A stretch of DNA of 64,000 nucleotides, from assembly GCF_000426445.1 (NCBI RefSeq), contig NZ_KE384526.1:605213-669212 (forward strand), given 5' to 3'. The stretch comes from Brevibacterium album DSM 18261. GTDB taxonomy: Bacteria > Actinomycetota > Actinomycetes > Actinomycetales > Brevibacteriaceae. The translations under genes were made by a program, and so were the position numbers. Every line of letters begins with the position of its first letter. Within the stretch, counting starts at the first letter, position 1. Positions 3,606 to 47,948 of this stretch are shown here, piece by piece. The notes beneath the pieces are model-generated. The model ran no database searches. It saw only the letters and a list, made by a program, of their open reading frames with translations, and was not told the DNA's origin.

Positions 3606-3648
3606 ACAGGCGAGTCTCCTCGGCCTAGGCGAACCTGAGATTCACCAG

Positions 3649-3721
3649 AGCCCCAAAAGGGAATCGAACCCTTGACCTTTTCCTTACCATGGAAACGCTC
3701 TGCCGACTGAGCTATTGGGGC
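3649..3721 (-). tRNA. tRNA-Thr(GGT), copy 2
   Basis: Identical over 73 nt to the tRNA at 1787-1859 and in the same orientation, 1,862 bp away. It lies 43 bp upstream (in transcription sense) of tRNA-Met, so the two are probably co-transcribed. Confidence 0.97.
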
Positions 3722-16336: not shown

Positions 16337-17617
16337 GTGACGAAAGCGAATCGCGCCCCGGGGACCCTGCTGCTCGTCCTCGTCGCCGCGATGGGCGCGG
16401 GCCCGCTGCTCAACTTCGCCCTCGCCGCCCTGAGCTCGCAGGTCACCGCCGACTACGGCATCACCGAGGGCCAGTACGGGTTCATCATCACGACCGTGTT
16501 CCTCCTGGCGGGGATCAGCTCCGTCCTGCTGGGCGACCTCGCCGACCGGATACCCGTCCGCGTGCAGATCGCCTTGATCTTCGGACTCCTGATCGCGGGC
16601 TTCCTCGTGAGCATCACCGCGCCCACCTACGCCGCCCTCGTGGCGGCCGCCGTCATCGCGGGGCCGGCGCAGGCGTTCGCGAACCCGGCCACCAACCGGA
16701 TCATCGCCGCGCACGTCCCCCTCGCCAAGCGCGGTGCGTGGATGGGGTGGAAGCAGTCCGGCGTGCAGTTCGGACTGCTGTTCGCCGGTGTCACGGTGCC
16801 CTTCGTGGGCGGGCTGGCCGGGTGGACCGGGGTGGCCCTCATGTGCGTGTGCCTCCTCGGCGTGCTGCTCGTGCTCGGCTGGCTCGTCATCTCCCGGCTG
16901 CCCGGCTCCCGCGACACCCGCGAGACGGTGGGCACCGAGCCCGAGGCGGACTCCCCGCCCGCTGAGACGGCCCCGGCGGAGTCCGGTCCGGGGCCCGCTC
17001 CGGAGACCGGGCCCGCATCCGGCGCCTCGAAGCTCTCCCTCGCCGTCTGGCTGCTCGCGATCTGCTCCTTCCTCAATGCGGTGGGCACGCAGGGCGTCAA
17101 TGCGTACGCCTCGCTCTTCGCGGTCCAGACCGTCGACTACCCCATAGAGCTCGCGGGCACGATGCTCGCGATCATCGGCGTGCTCGGCATCGTCGCCCGC
17201 AACGTCTGGGGGCGGATCGCGGGGCGCCTGAGCCGACCCGCGGCACTCATCCAGGTCATGAGCCTGGGCGGCATCCTCACGGCGGGAGGGCTCATCGCGA
17301 CCGAGCACACGCACCTGGAAGCGCTCATGTGGGTGGGCGTCGCACTCCACGCCTTCTTCCCGCTCGCGGCGAACGTCGTCATCAACTCCGGTGTGGTCGC
17401 GGCGGCACCCCCGGGCCGGATCGGCGTCGCCTCCGGGCTCGTCGCCGCCGGCATGAACCTCGGCTTCGCAGCGGGGCCGGCGGTCGTGGGGCTCGGCATC
17501 GACCTCACCGGGGCCTACACGCCGGGCTGGATCGCGCTCGCGGTCGTCTACCTCCTGTGCTTCGGCGTCGCGGTCGTGCTCGGACGGGTGGACCGTCCGG
17601 GGAGGGACGCGGACTGA
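16337..17617 (+). CDS. Major facilitator superfamily transporter
   Basis: A 426-residue, 12-helix MFS protein. The loop 2-3 motif [14 protein letters not shown] matches the MFS signature, and [14 protein letters not shown] in the fifth helix region resembles the CynX/NimT-type branch. The central loop (about 195-235) is replaced by a Pro/Glu/Ala low-complexity stretch. The substrate is not deducible. It sits between menaquinone genes but nothing in it points to quinones. The GTG start is supported by the -10 box six nucleotides upstream. Confidence 0.85.
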
Positions 17618-17669
17618 CGGCCCGCCGCGCGCACAGGCACTCCCGCCACGCGGTGCGGCGGCGGGTCAG

Positions 17670-17681
17670 TATCGTGGACGC
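17670..17681 (+). promoter_or_regulatory. -10 box for leaderless menF transcript
   Basis: TATCGT (17670-17675) followed by six nucleotides and the ATG at 17682. No Shine-Dalgarno sequence. Confidence 0.45.
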
Positions 17682-19232
17682 ATGACCGACCCCGCCTCCG
17701 AAAGCGCAGACTCCGGCCCCGCCTCCCTCGGCACCACGGCACCCGCCGATGCTCCGGCGCCGGCCGTCTCTGCGGCCCCTTCCGGCTCGCTTCCCCATCA
17801 GGACGAGGCGGCATGCCTTCCGCGCCTCACTGTCCGCTCCTGGTTCGTCGACGGGGTGACCCCGTCCGCTCCCGCGCCCTTCGCCGCGAGCATCCCCAGC
17901 CGCTCCCTCGACTTCCTCGAGCAGCTGCCGGAGGACCGCTTCTCCTGCTGGGTGCGGGGCCGTTCGGGGATCGTGGGCTTCGGGCGCAGACTGCGGCTGT
18001 CCGCGCAGGGTCCGCGCCGGTTCCGCGAGCTCGAGCAGAAGTGGACGGCGCTGGCCGACGGCGCCGAGGTCGACGACAGGGTGGAGCTCCTGGGCTCCGG
18101 TCTCGTGGGCTTCAGCGCCGTCGCGTTCGCGGACTCCTCGGCGGTGTCCTCGATCATCGATGTGCCCGAATTCGTCCTGGGCCGGAGGGACGGACGGGTG
18201 TGGCTCACCCACATCGCCGAGGTGCCCGGCACCGGCGCGGGAGCGGCCTCGGAGACGGGCGCGGCCTCGGGCTCGGACTCTGTTCCTGGAGCGGCCGGCG
18301 ACGCGCACGCGAGCGGCGGCGCAGGCACGGCCCCCGGACTGGACTTCCGCCTCACCCCGCGGCCGCTGCGCGAGCCCCCCGTCCTCAGCTCGGAGCCGGG
18401 CGACGTCTCCCCCGAACGGTACGAGGAGATGGTCGCACGCGCCTCAGCGCGGCTGCGGAGCCCCCGGGCAGGCGAGCGCAAGGTGGTCCTCGCCCGCGAC
18501 GAGGTGATCACGACCGACGGCGACATCGACGTCCGCGCAGTCGTGGGCCGTCTCAACCAGGCCTTCCCGAACACCTGGACGTTCAATGTGGGCGGCCTCG
18601 TGGGCGCCACGCCGGAGCTCCTGATCGGGGTGGAGAACGGCACGGTGCACTCGCGGGTGCTGGCGGGCACGTACCGCGTCGAACGGGATCCCGCGGAGGA
18701 GCTCGCAGCCGCCCGCGCCCAGCTCAGCGGGCACAAGGACTCGATCGAGCACTCCTACGCGATCGACTCGCTGGCGGCGACGCTCGGCTCCGTCACGGAC
18801 GAGCTCCACGTCGACCGGGAGCCCCATCTGCTGCAGCTCGCCAATGTCATCCACCTGGCCTCCGACGCCCACGGCACCCTGCGCGCGGGGACCGACGGCC
18901 GCCCCATCAGCCCGTTCCGCGTCGCCGAGGCCGTCCATCCGACCGCGGCCGTGGGCGGGACCCCGCGGGAGCGGGCGTTCGAGCTCATCGCCGAGCTCGA
19001 GGGGATGGACCGGGGCCGCTATGCCGGGCCGGTGGGCTGGGTGGACGGGTACGGCAACGGGCAGTTCGGCATCGCACTGCGCTGCGGGCAGCTCGAGGAG
19101 CGCGACCGCATCCGCATCTTCGCGGGCGCCGGCATCATGCCGGACTCCGACCCGGTCTCGGAGCGGCGCGAGACGGACGCGAAGCTCTCCCCCATGCGCG
19201 CAGCGCTCGGGGTGGAGCGCTCACCGCGCTGA
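17682..19232 (+). CDS. menF: Isochorismate synthase
   Basis: A chorismate-utilising enzyme (516 aa) that makes isochorismate, the entry to menaquinone. The MST fold spans about 245-505 with FNVGGLVGATPELLIG, the SGHKDSIEHSYAID segment, HPTAAVGGTPRERA, GRYAGPVGWVDGYGNG and the C-terminal FAGAGIMPDSDP...ETDAKL. A trpE or salicylate synthase is less likely given menD next door. Two low-complexity parts are notable: the first about 45 residues, and an insert at about 184-218 rich in Ala/Gly/Ser. The gene is convergent with menD, 37 bp away, so the two are not co-transcribed. Confidence 0.9.
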   Translation: MTDPASESADSGPASLGTTAPADAPAPAVSAAPSGSLPHQDEAACLPRLTVRSWFVDGVTPSAPAPFAASIPSRSLDFLEQLPEDRFSCWVRGRSGIVGFGRRLRLSAQGPRRFRELEQKWTALADGAEVDDRVELLGSGLVGFSAVAFADSSAVSSIIDVPEFVLGRRDGRVWLTHIAEVPGTGAGAASETGAASGSDSVPGAAGDAHASGGAGTAPGLDFRLTPRPLREPPVLSSEPGDVSPERYEEMVARASARLRSPRAGERKVVLARDEVITTDGDIDVRAVVGRLNQAFPNTWTFNVGGLVGATPELLIGVENGTVHSRVLAGTYRVERDPAEELAAARAQLSGHKDSIEHSYAIDSLAATLGSVTDELHVDREPHLLQLANVIHLASDAHGTLRAGTDGRPISPFRVAEAVHPTAAVGGTPRERAFELIAELEGMDRGRYAGPVGWVDGYGNGQFGIALRCGQLEERDRIRIFAGAGIMPDSDPVSERRETDAKLSPMRAALGVERSPR

Positions 19233-19253
19233 GACGGCCGCCCACTGGTCAGA

Positions 19254-19274
19254 GCTCAGGGCTCAGGGCTCAGG
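19254..19274. repeat. Three tandem copies of GCTCAGG
   Basis: Perfect 7-bp triplicate at the menF/menD convergent junction. The third copy contains the menD stop codon (19270-19272), so the repeat reaches the very end of the gene. Confidence 0.85.
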
Positions 19275-21207
19275 GCAGCCTGATCTCGCACAGCCCCGGC
19301 TCGCCCGAGTCGAGGAAGGCGGCGAGCGCCTGCGCCCCCGCAGAGCGTTCACCCGCATCGACCGTAAGTGCCGGCCAGCCCAGGGCCTCGGCGGCGGCGG
19401 CGAGGCCGAGGCCGTGCGGAGTGCCGAAGAAGCGCGCGAAGTACGGCTCGAGATGCGCCGCGGAGTGCTCGAGACCCGAGAAGATCGCACCGCCGTCGTC
19501 ATTGAGCACGATGATCTGCAGCCGGGGCCGGCGCTCGTGCGAGGGCACCACGAGCCCGCCGAGGTCGTGCAGGGCCGCGAGATCGCCCACCAGCAGGCGC
19601 ACCGGCCCCGCCGCCTGCTCACGCCCGGCGTCCTCGAGCCCGAGCGCGAGGCCCGAGGCGGTCGCGATCAGCCCGTCTATGCCCGCGAGTCCCCGGGAGG
19701 CGAGCACCCGGGCGGGGTGGTGCGGCAGCTGCTCGGCGGCGAGCAGGCGGATCGCGTTCGAGCTCGCGGCGAACAGCACGCCCGGTCGTTCGAGCAGCAT
19801 GCGGACCGCGGCCGCACCGTCGAAGGCCGCATCGGCCTCGCCTCCGCCCACTCGATCTGCCGAGTGAGCACTTTCTGTCGTTTCCACCGCTGAAACCCGA
19901 CAGAAACCGCTCACTCGGGAGGGAGAACTGGGGGAGGCATCGTCCGCTGCACCCTCGACGACAGCGCGCCCGGCGACGGCCCAGGCGCTCAGCCACTCCT
20001 CCCGCCCCAGAACTCCCGCACTTCTCCCGTCTCCCACCGTCCAATCCCCAGAGTGAGCACTTTCTGTCGATTCCACCGCCGAAATCCGACAGAAACCGCT
20101 CACTCGGGAGGGAGAGCCATCATCCTGCCGGGCGCCCGTCCCGTCCAGGTCGTAGGGCAGGTCGATGCGCACCACGTCGTCCCGGCCGAGCAGCTTCGCG
20201 ACGGGCCGGGAGAGCGTGGGCCTGCCGCTGACCACCACGTGGGTGACGGCCTCTCGCAGGCCGGCCGTTCCGGCATCGGCGAGCACCTGTGCATGGGCGG
20301 GGACCACGTGCGGATGCGAGGCGAGCGCCGAGGACGGCTCCGCGAACACGGGCATCCCGCACGCCGAGGCGAGTGCGGCCGCCGTCTGCGAGGCGAACCC
20401 CAGATCGTCGCCGGCCACGAGCACGCCGCGCGCCTCGGGATCCGAGGCGAAGGCTCGGATCCGCTCATGCAGCTCCGCGTGCGCTCCCGGGTGCGGGGAG
20501 AACGTCTCGGCGGGCCCGTCCGCGAAGGAGGCGGCGAGATCGCCGGCCTCCGGCACGAGCGGCACGTCGAACTGGACGTTGAGCTGCACGGGACCCGGCA
20601 GGGCATCGGGCAGGCGCCGGCCCCCGTACGCGCGGGGGTCCGCCCCCAGGGCCTCGGCCTGGGCGGCCCAGGCGGGGTCCGCCGCACCGCATCCGGGAGC
20701 GTGGCGGGTCCCCAGGGCGGTGTGCGCCGCCTCGATCACCAGCTGCTCGTCGTGGCGGAGCCAGGCCTCTCCCCCGCGCACGCCGAGATCCCAGCTCACG
20801 ACCGTCTCCGGCAGCGCGAGGTGCTGGGCGTCGAGCGTCTGGTTGGCACCGGTCCCGCGCAGTCGGGCGGGCCTGTCGGCGCTGAGCACGATGAGCGGCA
20901 CGTGCGAGTGGGCCGCCTCCATCACGGCGGGGTGGAGATTTCCCACCGCCGAGCCCGAGGTCGTCACGACCGCGGTGGGGCGCTCGGCGCCCGCCAGACG
21001 TCCCGCGCGTGCGAGGCCGAGGGCGGTGAAGGCCGCATCCCGCTCGTCGATGCGCACGTGCGCCCGCACGCTCCCCGCCCGGGCCAGGACGGCGATCGCA
21101 TATGTGAGCGGGGCGGAGCGGGAGCCCGGGCACACCACGAAGTCCCTCACCCCCGCCCGGACGAGTCCGCGCACGAGTGCCTGAGCTGAAGCGGTCGAGA
21201 CGTTCAC
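19270..21207 (-). CDS. menD: SEPHCHC synthase with two in-frame palindromic-element insertions
   Basis: The ThDP enzyme (645 aa from GTG 21207) adds 2-oxoglutarate-derived succinic semialdehyde to isochorismate. The N-terminus has VCPGSRSAPLTYA and the catalytic-type Glu55 in RIDERDAAF; TSGSAVGNLHPAVMEAA and SADRPARLRGTGANQT follow; the ThDP/Mg motif is IVLNDDGGAIFSGLEH (566-581). The usual length is about 550. The excess lies at about 357-460, where two related peptides (SPSRVSGFCR...ESAHS at 365-386 and 428-449) are encoded by two copies of a 65-bp palindrome. No stop or frameshift results and both flanking domains are intact, so the enzyme is probably functional. Confidence 0.9.
   Translation of the reverse strand: MNVSTASAQALVRGLVRAGVRDFVVCPGSRSAPLTYAIAVLARAGSVRAHVRIDERDAAFTALGLARAGRLAGAERPTAVVTTSGSAVGNLHPAVMEAAHSHVPLIVLSADRPARLRGTGANQTLDAQHLALPETVVSWDLGVRGGEAWLRHDEQLVIEAAHTALGTRHAPGCGAADPAWAAQAEALGADPRAYGGRRLPDALPGPVQLNVQFDVPLVPEAGDLAASFADGPAETFSPHPGAHAELHERIRAFASDPEARGVLVAGDDLGFASQTAAALASACGMPVFAEPSSALASHPHVVPAHAQVLADAGTAGLREAVTHVVVSGRPTLSRPVAKLLGRDDVVRIDLPYDLDGTGARQDDGSPSRVSGFCRISAVESTESAHSGDWTVGDGRSAGVLGREEWLSAWAVAGRAVVEGAADDASPSSPSRVSGFCRVSAVETTESAHSADRVGGGEADAAFDGAAAVRMLLERPGVLFAASSNAIRLLAAEQLPHHPARVLASRGLAGIDGLIATASGLALGLEDAGREQAAGPVRLLVGDLAALHDLGGLVVPSHERRPRLQIIVLNDDGGAIFSGLEHSAAHLEPYFARFFGTPHGLGLAAAAEALGWPALTVDAGERSAGAQALAAFLDSGEPGLCEIRLP
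19862..19926 (-). repeat. Palindromic element inside menD, copy A
   Basis: A 65-bp element with 20-bp arms (19861-19880 and 19898-19917) matching at 18 of 20 positions around a 17-nt loop, followed by GGGAGGGAGA. It is 62/65 identical to copy B at 20051-20115 and lies in the same orientation. It is translated on the minus strand as part of MenD (about residues 428-449). Confidence 0.9.
20051..20115 (-). repeat. Palindromic element inside menD, copy B
   Basis: The second 65-bp copy, differing from copy A at three positions, two of them in the loop. The arms are 20051-20069 and 20087-20105. It is translated as MenD residues 365-386. The two copies are separated by 124 bp. Confidence 0.9.
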
Positions 21208-21512
21208 CCGCACGATTCTTCCACGCGGTGCGCGCCCCGCCTGACCTCCCACCGGGTCGGGAGCGCCCCCCGGCCGATCCCACGAGCCCGCCCGAGCGCA
21301 CCGCATCCTCGTCCAGCGGAGCGCGCGGTGCCTCGCAGAGGTGTGCCCGCGCCGCTGCGTCCGCGACGGTGTGTCCAAGCTGGCACATGCGGCGGTGCTT
21401 CCGCGCTCCCCGCCTCCATTACCGTAGTCGTGTCAACACCAGCGCCGCCGCCTTCGGGCGAGAGCGCATCCGTCCTGGGGCATCCGGCCCAGGCCCTGCC
21501 GAGGAGCAACCC
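21208..21512. other. Intergenic region between divergent menD and lipoprotein gene
   Basis: 305 bp without a supported gene on either strand. It must hold the promoters of menD (leftward) and of the lipoprotein gene (rightward). For the latter, TACCGT near 21421 is a possible -10 box. No inverted repeat or RNA structure stands out. Confidence 0.5.
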
Positions 21513-22253
21513 ATGAAGACCACCGCCGCCGCTTTCAGGACCCGCACCGCGCTGACCGGCCTCGTGCTGGGCGCCGGCCTCATCCTCTCCGCATGCGGTT
21601 CGGACGACGCCGCCCCGGCCGAGGAGGGCGCGGCTCAGGAGGAGGGCGGCCAGGAGGCCGCCGCACAGGAGGAGGCCGCCGAGGCTCCCGCGGCCACCGC
21701 CGAGGACCTCACCGCCGCGATCGAGGCGCTCGGCTACACGGCGCAGGCGACGGACGCCTCGCAGCTGGGAGAGATGCAGAGCGCGATGGGCGACATCTCC
21801 GTCGAGCCGGCCGAGTGCGAGGCCGTCATGAACGCCGGTATGGCCGCCGCCGAGGGCTCGGACGCCTCGCTGGTCGTGGGCATGCCCGCCGATCCCACGA
21901 CCGAGCCCACCGTCGTCGGCATGGCCTACGGCTCCGCCGACGAGGCCGCCTCCCCCCTCTCCGCCAACCAGGAGTCCCTCGGCTCGTGCAGCGAGGTCAC
22001 GGTGACAATGCAGGGCATGGAGGTCTCCAGCTCGACCACCGAGGTCTCCGCGGACGTGGAGGGCGCGGACGCCGTCTTCGCCACCGAGGCGACCATGGAC
22101 CTCTCCGGCCAGGAGATGACGACGCGCAACCTCGTCGTGCAGAAGGGCTCGGCACTCGTGACCCTCACCGGTGTCGCCGCTCCCGGTGCGGAGGGTGCGG
22201 ACATGGACTCCCTCGCGGAGACCGCCGCGAGCGTCGTCGCCGAGCTCCCCTGA
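21513..22253 (+). CDS. Putative secreted lipoprotein, function unknown
   Basis: A 246-residue protein with a type II signal peptide: a basic start (MKTTAAAFRTR), a hydrophobic core and the lipobox LSAC with the lipidated Cys at about residue 29. An acidic Glu/Ala/Gln-rich linker (about 33-65) leads to a compact domain with two Cys (in ECEAV and SCSEV, possibly a disulphide). The domain faintly recalls the mycobacterial PknH-C/lipoprotein sensor fold, but I cannot name it. GAGGAG precedes the ATG. The gene is monocistronic and convergent with menC. Confidence 0.75.
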   Translation: MKTTAAAFRTRTALTGLVLGAGLILSACGSDDAAPAEEGAAQEEGGQEAAAQEEAAEAPAATAEDLTAAIEALGYTAQATDASQLGEMQSAMGDISVEPAECEAVMNAGMAAAEGSDASLVVGMPADPTTEPTVVGMAYGSADEAASPLSANQESLGSCSEVTVTMQGMEVSSSTTEVSADVEGADAVFATEATMDLSGQEMTTRNLVVQKGSALVTLTGVAAPGAEGADMDSLAETAASVVAELP

Positions 22254-22259
22254 TCCCGC

Positions 22260-22298
22260 GCCGCCCGTGCGCGGCGCTCCCGCTCACGCACGGGCCGC
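22260..22298. terminator. Hairpin between lipoprotein gene and menC
   Basis: 12-bp arms (22260-22271, 22287-22298) pair at 11 of 12 positions around a 15-nt loop, starting 7 bp after the lipoprotein stop and 24 bp beyond the menC stop. No U-tract. Confidence 0.6.
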
Positions 22299-22321
22299 AG
22301 CGCCCACGCGACCTCTCAGCC

Positions 22322-23365
22322 TCAGAGCTGACGGGCGAGCACATCCCAGCAGGCCCCGAGCCGTTCGGTCCAGAATCGGACGCGCTCGGGGCTTGCCGCG
22401 TGTGCGCGCAGCAGCGCCTCGTCCGGGGCCGCCCGCCCCACGGGCAGCGCACCGCCGGCCGGCAGCAGGGGCGGATCGCAGACGTCCGCTGCGAACAGGG
22501 CCGCCGTGCCCAGTCCCGCGGCCGGGACGGCAGGCAGCGCCGAGGCCGGCAGCGAGGCGGCGAGCGCGGCCCCTGCGGCCAGCCCCACGCTGGATTCGAG
22601 CGCGGAGGACACCACCGCCGGCAGGCCCGCCTCCTCGACGATCCGCGCCGCGGCGCGGATGCCCCCCAGCGGCTGCACCTTGACGACGATGACGTCCGCC
22701 GCCCCCAGTGCGGCGACGCGCAGCGGATCCTCGGCCTTCCGGATCGACTCATCGGCGGCGAGCGGCACGGGCAGCCCCTCGGCGGCGACCCAGGCGCGCA
22801 GCTCGGCCAGCTCCTCGACCGCGGCGACCGGCTGCTCGACGTACTGCAGCGGCCCGCTCCCGGCGAGGGCGGCGAGCGCAGTCCGGGCCTCAGCAGGGCT
22901 GTAGGCGGCATTCGCATCGCAGCGGAGGGCGGCCTCGGGAAGGGCTCTGCGCACGGCGGCGACGCGCGCGAGGTCCTCCTCGAGGGAGGCCATGCCGTGT
23001 TCGGCGATCTTCACCTTCACCGCGGTCGCTCCCTCGAAACGCGCGGCCAGGTCCGGCACACGTTCGGCCGGGACCGCGGGGATCGTCGCGTTCACCGGCA
23101 CCGCGCCCCTGAGCGGCGCAGGGAAGCCGAGCACCGCGGACTCGACAGCGGCCGCGAGCCAGTGGGCGGCCTCGGGCGCGGCGTACTCGACGAAGGGCGC
23201 GAACTCCGCCCACCCGGCGGGACCGTGCACGAGGCAGGTCTCCCTGACCGTGAGCCCGCGGAACCGGGTCCGCATGGGCAGGGACACGGGTACCACGCGG
23301 TCGAAGACATCGGACGGGCCTGCGGCGCTGGCGAGGACGGCGCGGACCTCAGCGGGGATGAGCAT
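22322..23365 (-). CDS. menC: o-Succinylbenzoate synthase
   Basis: An enolase-superfamily enzyme (347 aa) that dehydrates SHCHC to o-succinylbenzoate. Catalytic and metal motifs are VKVKI (Lys pair after the cap domain), LRCDANAAYS (Asp ligand), YVEQPV (Glu ligand), LAADESIRK (Asp ligand and general-base Lys region) and VVKVQPLGGI. ATG 23365 gives the normal length. The gene is divergent from menB with 130 bp between the starts. Dipeptide epimerase is the main alternative in the superfamily, but the men neighbourhood decides. Confidence 0.9.
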   Translation of the reverse strand: MLIPAEVRAVLASAAGPSDVFDRVVPVSLPMRTRFRGLTVRETCLVHGPAGWAEFAPFVEYAAPEAAHWLAAAVESAVLGFPAPLRGAVPVNATIPAVPAERVPDLAARFEGATAVKVKIAEHGMASLEEDLARVAAVRRALPEAALRCDANAAYSPAEARTALAALAGSGPLQYVEQPVAAVEELAELRAWVAAEGLPVPLAADESIRKAEDPLRVAALGAADVIVVKVQPLGGIRAAARIVEEAGLPAVVSSALESSVGLAAGAALAASLPASALPAVPAAGLGTAALFAADVCDPPLLPAGGALPVGRAAPDEALLRAHAASPERVRFWTERLGACWDVLARQL

Positions 23366-27638: not shown

Positions 27639-27702
27639 ACGGCCCGCATATTCCTTTTCGCACCATGCCGCGGCGTGGTGCGAAAAGGAATATGCGGGCC
27701 GT
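27639..27702. terminator. 27-bp perfect hairpin between menA and DUF4229 gene
   Basis: Arms 27639-27665 and 27676-27702 are perfectly complementary over 27 bp, and the 10-nt loop contains its own GCCGCGGC palindrome. It is the longest hairpin in the window. It separates convergent genes. The stem holds an A+T-rich middle (ATATTCC/GGAATAT) unlike the other terminators, so it might also be a mobile palindromic element. Confidence 0.8.
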
Positions 27703-43426: not shown

Positions 43427-43548
43427 AGGCAAACCTCACGGACTCGAAGTTCCGGTGAACGCGAGCGCGACACCGGCGGAACATAGCCGGTCAATCATAT
43501 CGCCGCAGAGCGCGGGAGGGCAAAAACATGTGCCGCACCAGTCACAGG

Positions 43549-43650
43549 CGCGGGCAGCCGCGTCACCGGCTACCAGCGCGCGCCTCGTCTATACAGCGTC
43601 AATCGTAGTCGCGGGCAGCCGCGTCACCGGCTCCCAGCACGCGCCTCATC
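43549..43650. repeat. Tandem duplication of the 3' end of the deacetylase gene
   Basis: Two 41-bp segments (43549-43589 and 43610-43650) match at 38 of 41 positions with a 61-bp period. The second overlaps the stop codon of the deacetylase-like gene. After the first copy, a degenerate Tyr-Asp-stop sequence is still visible around 43600, which suggests that the gene end plus flank was duplicated in tandem. Confidence 0.75.
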
Positions 43651-46424: not shown

Positions 46425-46436
46425 GGTCCCGGGCCA

Positions 46437-46485
46437 CCAGGTCTCCCGAGCTGCCAGGTCCCCGAGCCGCCAGGTCCCGGAGCCG
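46437..46485. repeat. Three imperfect tandem copies of a 16-17-bp unit
   Basis: Units beginning CCAGGTC at 46437, 46454 and 46470, differing at a few positions, 13 bp after the trkH stop. Confidence 0.75.
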
Positions 46486-46625
46486 CACCACCCCTCAGCG
46501 GCGTGGGAACCGCACGCGGACGCCGGCAGCGCGACGGTTTCGCCGTGCGTCACACGGCAGGGCAGGAACCGGGTCGAGATGCGTCACTGCACCTGTGGAC
46601 CGTCGCGCAGCTCTCCACAGGAGGA

Positions 46626-47813
46626 ATGGTGCCCTGGACACAGCGGCACCGCTTCCCTTGGCTGACCGCCATGAGCACTCGATCTCCGTACGCAGAGTCC
46701 CCGCCTCACGGCCACGCCCCCGCACACCCCGTCGAGCACCCCGGCACCCCTCTGTCCGGGACACCTCCGACCGGCGCTTCACAGGTCCACGCAGGCGGGC
46801 GGCCGCAGCCGGTGCCGGAGCACCCCGAGGCCCCGCGTCCGCGCTCGGCCCGGCACCCCAGTCTGGGGACATGGAGCTGTCGGGAGAAGCAGATCCGGGT
46901 GCCCGTCCTCGTCACACCGCGCACTGCGGCCGCACACGGCCTCCCGCCCTCGGCGGTGCAGTCGCGTCCGCGCAGACGTCCGGTGGTCCGGGGCGTGTTC
47001 GCCCATCCCACGGCCACAGCCCTGATGGCGGTGCCCCTCTGGGAGGAGGACGACTGGGAGGAGATGCGCACCCGCGTCGCGGCACTTCAGCTCCGGAACC
47101 CCGGTCTGGTGCTCTCGCACCTCTCCGCCGCGCGCTTCTGCGGCTGGCCGGTGCCCGCCTCGGCGGACGAGAGGATCGACATCACGCCCATGCGGTCCCA
47201 CAGCCGCCTGCCCGGGTTCCGCGTCCACCATGTGAGGAGGGAGCTCGAGACCTGGCGTCTGTACGGCATCGCGGTCACCGCACCGGGGCAGACCCTGCGG
47301 CAGATCTCCCGGGCGCTCACCCGCAAGCAGCTCGTCGAGGTCCTCGACTGCCTCTGCGGTCCCTGGCACTCCGCCGCCTACACGACGCCCGAGGAGCTCG
47401 GACGGAAGCTGCCGGAGTGGCGCCGATTCAAGGGAAGGACCGCGCTGGGAGAGGCGCTGCAGCATGCCCGGGCGGGAGTGGGCTCGCCCCGGGAGACGCA
47501 CCTCCGGCTCACGATCACCGAGGTGGGCCTGCCCGAGCCCGTCGTCTCCCCTCCCGTCGATGTGGGCAGCGCGGTGTACCACCCGGACCTCGCATACCCC
47601 GAGCTCAAGATCGCGATCGAGTACGAGGGCGAGCACCACCGCACGGACCCTTGGCAGTGGGAGCACGACATCCGCCGCGAACGGGAGTTCGTCTCGCTGG
47701 GATGGACGTACATCCGCATTACGAAGACGACCTCGGACGCGCAGGCTGTGAGCCTGATCGCCCGTGCGCTCGCGGACCGCGGTGTCGCAGCGACCATCAC
47801 CCCTCCGGCCTGA
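46626..47813 (+). CDS. DUF559-like endonuclease-fold protein with AbiEi-type N-terminal region
   Basis: About 395 residues. The C-terminal 120 carry a PD-(D/E)XK-like core: SPRETHLR, then YHPDLAYPELKIAIEYEGEHH (Asp and Glu-x-Glu) and RREREFVSLGWTYIRITK. This is the Vsr/DUF559 type common in actinobacterial genomes, often with a helix-turn-helix N-terminus like AbiEi antitoxins; a weak match is seen at PRTAAAHGLPPSAVQ. The first 80 residues are Pro-rich. The role is unknown. The start is unsure: 46626 has AGGAGG one base away, and 46629 (GTG) and 46671 are alternatives. It separates trkH from trkA. Confidence 0.7.
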   Translation: MVPWTQRHRFPWLTAMSTRSPYAESPPHGHAPAHPVEHPGTPLSGTPPTGASQVHAGGRPQPVPEHPEAPRPRSARHPSLGTWSCREKQIRVPVLVTPRTAAAHGLPPSAVQSRPRRRPVVRGVFAHPTATALMAVPLWEEDDWEEMRTRVAALQLRNPGLVLSHLSAARFCGWPVPASADERIDITPMRSHSRLPGFRVHHVRRELETWRLYGIAVTAPGQTLRQISRALTRKQLVEVLDCLCGPWHSAAYTTPEELGRKLPEWRRFKGRTALGEALQHARAGVGSPRETHLRLTITEVGLPEPVVSPPVDVGSAVYHPDLAYPELKIAIEYEGEHHRTDPWQWEHDIRREREFVSLGWTYIRITKTTSDAQAVSLIARALADRGVAATITPPA

Positions 47814-47895: not shown

Positions 47896-47948
47896 TCGTC
47901 TGCCTTGCCAACGCGAAACGCCGGATTCCGCGTTCGCAGGGCAGACGA
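47896..47948. repeat. Palindromic element between DUF559-like gene and trkA
   Basis: 20-bp arms (47896-47915, 47929-47948) pair at 18 of 20 positions around a 13-nt loop. The layout equals the two menD elements although the sequence differs. It could be a terminator for the convergent genes or another palindromic repeat family. Confidence 0.75.

Follow-up and report, generated by a model that had tools for sequence, protein, structure and literature searches.

To our knowledge, the best-known case of a bacterial enzyme gene tied to dispersed palindromes is the REPIN/RAYT system; Rickettsia palindromic elements (RPE) are palindromes read in frame inside protein genes, and TRIT is a sequence-conserved terminator of mycobacteria. 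Here we analyse a stretch of 64,000 nucleotides from Brevibacterium album DSM 18261 (contig NZ_KE384526.1, positions 605,213 to 669,212 of the forward strand; called the window below), in which two copies of a palindromic element lie inside menD. The element belongs to a 55-bp family that is dispersed over the genome and strongly associated with a nuclease-like gene, which it brackets. The menD inserts are copies of this family that were probably spread in trans by the predicted AbiEi-DUF559/Vsr-like nuclease encoded between the palindromes, and from this arrangement we infer a system similar to REPIN/RAYT that is built around an unrelated enzyme.

With TRIT and other conserved terminators the family shares a sequence-conserved hairpin located behind genes, but it differs from them in bracketing a nuclease gene, in having copies within genes and in outer arms that are specific to the genus. 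The bracketed protein can be compared to EDxHD/Vsr-like homing endonucleases such as I-Bth0305I; unlike these, it has an AbiEi-like domain as fusion partner, and the palindromes at the borders of its gene also occur dispersed elsewhere. It resembles AbiEi, the antitoxin of AbiE, in its N-terminal fold and profile matches, and AbiEi binds inverted repeats; unlike the antitoxin, it carries a nuclease-like domain.

By analogy, the nearest working model would be REPIN/RAYT, with an enzyme that is unrelated. In P. fluorescens SBW25, the palindromes fall into three groups, and each group has a RAYT of its own next to it (PMC3116915). The B. album family is like REP/REPIN-RAYT systems in that short palindromes occur in many copies per genome, are mostly extragenic and lie beside a single-copy enzyme gene (PMC3116915). 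It is unlike them in its enzyme (AbiEi plus DUF559, with no Y1_Tnp, PF01797, in B. album), in its unit, which is a single hairpin of 55-65 bp found on both sides of the gene, and in the tetranucleotides beside the core, where GTAG occurs in 0/75 copies and CGTC, at one end, in 14/75. The comparison with RPE made in the first-pass annotation stands as far as in-frame copies within genes are concerned (six copies in four genes), and goes no further than likeness: the lineage is another one, and a bracketed nuclease-like gene exists here. RPE-4 and RPE-6 are CGTC REPs, and CGTC repeats are described as apparently without a dedicated transposase (PMC3733652).

Palindromic elements within menD

The features of the menD region are as follows.

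19270..21207, minus strand: menD, 645 aa from a GTG start at 21207, matching TIGR00173 above cut-off
19862..19916, no strand assigned: copy 1 of the palindromic element (55-bp core), which menD reads through on the minus strand
20051..20105, no strand assigned: copy 2 of the palindromic element (55-bp core), which menD reads through on the minus strand
19917..19926 (copy 1) and 20106..20115 (copy 2), no strand assigned: local GGGAGGGAGA flank of the menD copies, outside the family unit

The TIGR00173 scan was run on the 702-aa open frame (262.8 bits against a cut-off of 244.2). The element pair that the first-pass annotation had noticed is real: 19862-19926 and 20051-20115 have the same orientation, are separated by 124 bp and are identical at 62/65 positions. 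Both are indeed read in frame, each beginning in codon phase 0; the copy at 20051-20115 encodes SPSRVSGFCRISAVESTESAHS (residues 365-386 of MenD) and the copy at 19862-19926 encodes SPSRVSGFCRVSAVETTESAHS (residues 428-449). The folding of both copies beats 200/200 dinucleotide shuffles on either strand (z -3.5 to -5.9), and three of the six reading frames of copy 1 are stop-free. The annotation had also defined a 65-bp unit with GGGAGGGAGA at its end; this has to be given up, as the unit of the family consists of a 55-bp core that GCC/GGC extends weakly. Since GGGAGGGAGA follows both menD copies and is absent from the 30 others among the 32 that were aligned, it is a local flank.

The annotation also placed the elements in a stretch of about 100 residues that normal-length MenD lacks; a gain of this size is not supported. 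The linker that holds the elements is hypervariable across the genus, and the elements supply 44 residues of it; between conserved anchors, it comprises 145 residues here vs 82-129 in the 27 of 29 relatives in which its length was measurable. In the predicted structure of MenD (mean predicted local distance difference test score, pLDDT, 77.9), most of the core is confident, while pLDDT falls below 50 at residues 360-368, 377-399 and 429-459, where the linker is predicted to be disordered. It is likely that menD tolerates two elements because the element has no stop in this frame and lies in this hypervariable, predicted disordered linker. Neither SGFCR nor SAHS was found in any of the 29 relative MenD sequences, and a word scan of the other 119 MenD homologues (the best listed of 3934 matches) yielded a single chance 5-mer. 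On the evidence of these 29 and 119 sequences, the idea that the element peptides are an old feature of the MenD domain is rejected; the finding that the first-pass annotation named as speaking against inserted elements, namely no further copies in the genome and the same peptides in distant MenD proteins, did not occur.

The argument that the survival of two separate insertions is in itself special does not carry over either, as a local duplication fits the menD pair better. The two copies are each other's nearest relative (likeness 0.95 vs at best 0.85 to any other copy), and the eight neighbouring copy pairs in the genome that are less than 2 kb apart have a mean likeness of 0.85 vs 0.73 for random pairs (0/10,000 resamples as high). 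Given this high likeness of neighbouring copies, the best reading of the menD pair is a single arrival followed by one local duplication; two independent long-range insertions are disfavoured by the mutual similarity of the copies.

The palindrome family in Brevibacterium album and other genomes

A DNA search with the element found further copies in the genome, in line with the expectation of a dispersed palindromic family. The 55-bp unit can be written as GAGTGAGC-NN-TTTCTGTCG-N17-CGACAGAAA-NN-GCTCACTC, where the arms mirror each other and covary around 17 variable central bases; in most copies it is flanked by GCC/GGC, and these bases pair. When up to 3 mismatches were allowed, the arm pattern gave 73 forward and 75 reverse matches vs 4 + 4 for a reversed-pattern control. 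A covariance model built from 32 copies gave at least 150 strand matches, corresponding to at least 75 places, some of them in frame within genes; a search of 361,752 bases (the window and stretches around other copies) returned the same 75 places and none beyond. TTTT occurs no further than 15 bases from an end in 1/75 copies. There is no excess of direct repeats at the 75 core edges (4-bp repeats at 5% vs 10% at random places), with the proviso that element boundaries are not proved and that a displaced target duplication could escape this edge test. A known RNA family was rejected, as an Rfam scan of window positions 17000-23000 gave five matches, all below the gathering score, and a RAYT as mobiliser was rejected on zero Y1_Tnp (PF01797) matches in the genome; the control matched in 5 of 14 known genomes.

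The copies are placed in a highly uneven manner relative to genes, whose positions were taken from our own codon-usage gene finder and not from curated annotation. Among the 75 copies, 22 are convergent, 31 tandem and 4 divergent intergenic; 11 overlap a gene end, 6 lie in genes and 1 is at a contig end. In the 11 gene-end-overlapping copies, the stop codon TGA is formed by element positions 4-6. Leaving aside the six in-gene copies and the one at the contig end, a gene 3' end is found within 60 bp for 61/68 copies vs 27% of random noncoding slots, and a gene 5' end within the same distance for 7/68 vs 33%. The six in-gene copies fall into four predicted genes: menD (2), the MrpF gene (2, both behind the MrpF Pfam domain), the gene for acyl-CoA carboxylase alpha and a moeA-like gene. 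They use two reading frames, one giving VSGFCR...ESAHS in menD and a related peptide in the carboxylase alpha subunit, the other giving peptides like SEQFLSDSDAE.DRKRSLG in the MrpF and moeA-like genes.

Within the genus, a search of 36 congeneric genomes gave matches in eight, all of them chance-like fragments of 17-26 bases (E 0.06 or worse), and the core pattern was found in 0/34 same-genus relatives. In a scan of public genomes with whole-genome counts, the inner design recurs in other actinobacteria: TTTCTGTCG and its mirror are mostly 17 bases apart (some 18, rarely 15 or 16), so that a 9-base core and a near-fixed spacer are common across genera. The outer arms vary by lineage, with GCGTGAGGGGTCA and GCTCCCGTCGCA in Microbacterium, GGGATAGTCCCTGACG in Nocardioides and CGCTGGGCCTGACG in Aeromicrobium. 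The pattern is present in 8/396 genomes of the order, B. album included. Per genome, its strict form was counted 29 times in B. album, 22 times in M. oxydans BEL163, 11 times in Microbacteriaceae PS02344, 7 times in M. sp. 5K110 and 6 times in each of three others.

A nuclease-like gene bracketed by palindromes

In four actinobacterial genera, the palindrome borders genes for proteins with an AbiEi-like part and DUF559. M. sp. 5K110 has a 296-aa open reading frame that matches DUF559 and MTES_1575, bracketed by two elements whose centres are identical; in B. album itself, a DUF559-type gene (locus L203) lies between elements at contig 2 positions 177586 and 178961. The same bracketed arrangement is seen in M. 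oxydans (L307) and in N. immobilis (L047), where the second palindrome has diverged, and in a genome that is neither Brevibacterium nor Microbacterium (G349), the gene has a TTTCTGTCG palindrome in front of it and, behind it, another palindrome whose centre is similar. Gene-palindrome adjacency was thus present in at least 5 of the 21 palindrome-bearing genomes searched for DUF559, with none by PF04480 matches in the other 16; the count is a lower bound, as PF04480 missed the N. immobilis case. DUF559 genes at the other close element pairs of the B. album genome were rejected: in the stretches of this genome that were scanned, the group profile matched only L203 and the gene in the window described below, and a PF04480 match near a contig end (L306) gave nothing by this profile.

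The predicted fold of the bracketed proteins is AbiEi followed by a candidate Vsr/homing-endonuclease domain, with the AbiEi-like N-terminal domain supported by both profile matches and fold. At E 0.1, PF18741 matches 23/28 and PF04480 22/28 members of the protein group, and one protein (L056) exceeds the PF04480 cut-off. The bracketed protein of B. album stays below both curated cut-offs (19.2 vs 38.2 bits and 14.8 vs 20.6 bits) and was assigned via the group profile and its fold. Mitoribosome and viral endonuclease entries with similar or lower scores also appear in the VIA-align and Foldseek results; we gave them no weight.

To look at the association more broadly, an alignment of four palindrome-bracketed proteins (query A2) was searched in 396 genomes of the order and matched in 336. 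Around the best 30 loci, most genes are bracketed by palindromes of about 50-65 bp of one family, where the family differs by locus. Flanking pairs were scored by script as a repeat of at least 40 bp up- and downstream, with E ≤0.01 and palindromic on both sides, using thresholds fixed after the flanks of these 30 loci had been viewed: such a pair is present in 21/27 testable DUF559 loci (19/25 without the two query genomes), vs 0/28 MenD loci, some of whose flanks start within the gene, and 0/44 other genes of 700-1100 bp. Three of the 30 DUF559 loci (L329, L334, L347; contig ends) and two of the 30 MenD loci (L159, L167; too short) were left out, and the surveyed loci are not all independent events, because several are the same place in related species.

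One of the flanking families is widely dispersed in two genomes: the arm GTGTCCAAGACACGCGG, taken from the gene flanks in G243 and G336, was counted 34+20 and 31+29 times there, respectively, and is absent from the remaining 394 genomes of the order. The DUF559 genes there (L345, L350) sit amid several palindromes of one family, with two on one side and three on the other at L345, forming a small array. At one conserved locus in two close relatives (L332/L337), identity is 92-95% in the outer flanks and 77% in the gene, yet only 66-68% in both palindromes, the middle of all four arms having changed together. The AbiEi-DUF559 gene is at the same chromosomal place in several species, and for this reason it looks resident while the palindromes turn over. 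A syntenic empty site was not found; flank matches led to loci that had themselves been selected for their DUF559 match. Two Microbacterium-type genomes each have a DUF559 gene in the same chromosomal interval (L056, L338), but the palindromes there belong to different families. A 115-bp near-perfect palindrome with CTGTCG/CGACAG adjoins a DUF559 match at a contig end (L309:1-115, contig 23 of G409).

The window itself contains another gene of this type, with a palindrome of another family.

46983..47813, plus strand: second AbiEi-DUF559-type gene, matching the profile of palindrome-flanked proteins with E 1.4e-59 (open frame 46425-47810)
47896..47948, no strand assigned: 53-bp other-family palindrome TCGTCTGCC...GGCAGACGA behind this gene, with another copy at L235:3632-3685 in the same genome

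On the other side of the gene, no matching palindrome was found.

Proposed mechanism and alternative explanations

We suggest that the AbiEi part of the enzyme would recognise the palindrome, and that its nicking or cutting, in duplex, cruciform or hairpin form, would fall to the nuclease part. With another copy as template, repair would then convert or duplicate palindromes, often locally. The enzyme gene would mostly stay put, as its conserved chromosomal location in related species suggests, and its two palindromes would change sequence together. Copies would likely survive just behind stop codons and rarely inside genes, because in that position the hairpin does no harm or may contribute to ending or protecting transcripts. 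In its most general form, this may well be a new mobile-DNA system of Actinomycetota, for which we see about equal chances of being right and wrong: a resident gene for a homing-type AbiEi-DUF559 nuclease, with palindromes of its own (55-65 bp) on either side, would copy these in trans chromosome-wide, rewrite both when its specificity changes, and seed gene ends with hairpins and, rarely, enzymes such as MenD with peptides. Several observations weigh against a simple form of spread by the bracketed nuclease. The proteins beside TTTCTGTCG palindromes do not form one clade, so that a single DUF559 clade for this palindrome had to be rejected; DUF559-type genes are common everywhere (336/396 genomes); 6/27 loci are without a flanking pair; and no movement was seen.

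The location of the copies behind stop codons, with 22 convergent and only 4 divergent, together with the strong hairpin on both strands, would also be expected if the palindromes were selected bidirectional terminators or mRNA 3'-end hairpins multiplied by ordinary recombination, with DUF559 merely owning one. We consider this unlikely, though it is the strongest of the competitors: it leaves unexplained the 9-base core with its near-fixed spacer across genera, the one-family palindromes on both DUF559 sides vs 0/72 controls, the absence of credible matches in 36 congeners and the in-frame copies within four genes, and TTTT near an end in only 1/75 copies does not speak for it. The AbiEi-like fold and models of the bracketed proteins allow for autoregulation. 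In this reading, the AbiEi domain would repress its own gene via the upstream palindrome, transcription would stop at the downstream palindrome, and the dispersed copies would form a regulon or act as decoys instead of being mobile DNA; inverted repeats are bound by AbiEi antitoxins, which repress the operon that they belong to (PMC7319586). Against this, the dispersed copies are found behind genes rather than in promoter regions (7/68 have a gene 5' end within 60 bp), both flanking palindromes change together, and copies close to each other resemble one another more than usual, as a recent duplication would leave them, which makes autoregulation decidedly improbable.

Ends of insertion sequences have conserved tips rather than a conserved inner part, and the palindromes behave in the opposite way, as their outer tips differ between genera and the inner part is conserved. 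We therefore give very little credence to a miniature inverted-repeat element of an ordinary insertion sequence yet to be recognised in the genome; such an element would be short, palindromic, multi-copy and patchy as observed, but the lack of direct-repeat excess at the core edges is a further point against it.

If spread by the bracketed nuclease is correct, it would be a second, unrelated pairing of enzyme and palindromes, meaning that enzyme-driven spread of hairpins arose more than once. It would also offer a concrete hypothesis for the very common, unexplained DUF559/AbiEi-type genes and for orphan palindromes behind genes, and it is directly testable, with the enzyme, a candidate target and candidate catalytic residues named. 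The copies in menD and in the carboxylase, moeA-like and mrpF genes show how elements can add peptides to conserved proteins. Judged by title and start of abstract, no open-licence paper among those listed links DUF559 with palindromic repeats, in a search that left subscription papers and preprint servers largely uncovered; judged in the same way, papers containing both DUF559 and "palindrom" concern CRISPR/quorum sensing and NAD.

Other repeats are present in the window. A near-perfect 64-bp palindrome (32-bp arms, 97%, no spacer) at 27639-27702 follows a predicted gene end (27633) at a distance of a few bases. Two identical 74-bp stretches, 1786-1859 and 3648-3721, are 1.9 kb apart and by eye resemble tRNA genes, and at 43539-43650 a 51-bp repeat occurs twice (86% alike, 61 bp from start to start).
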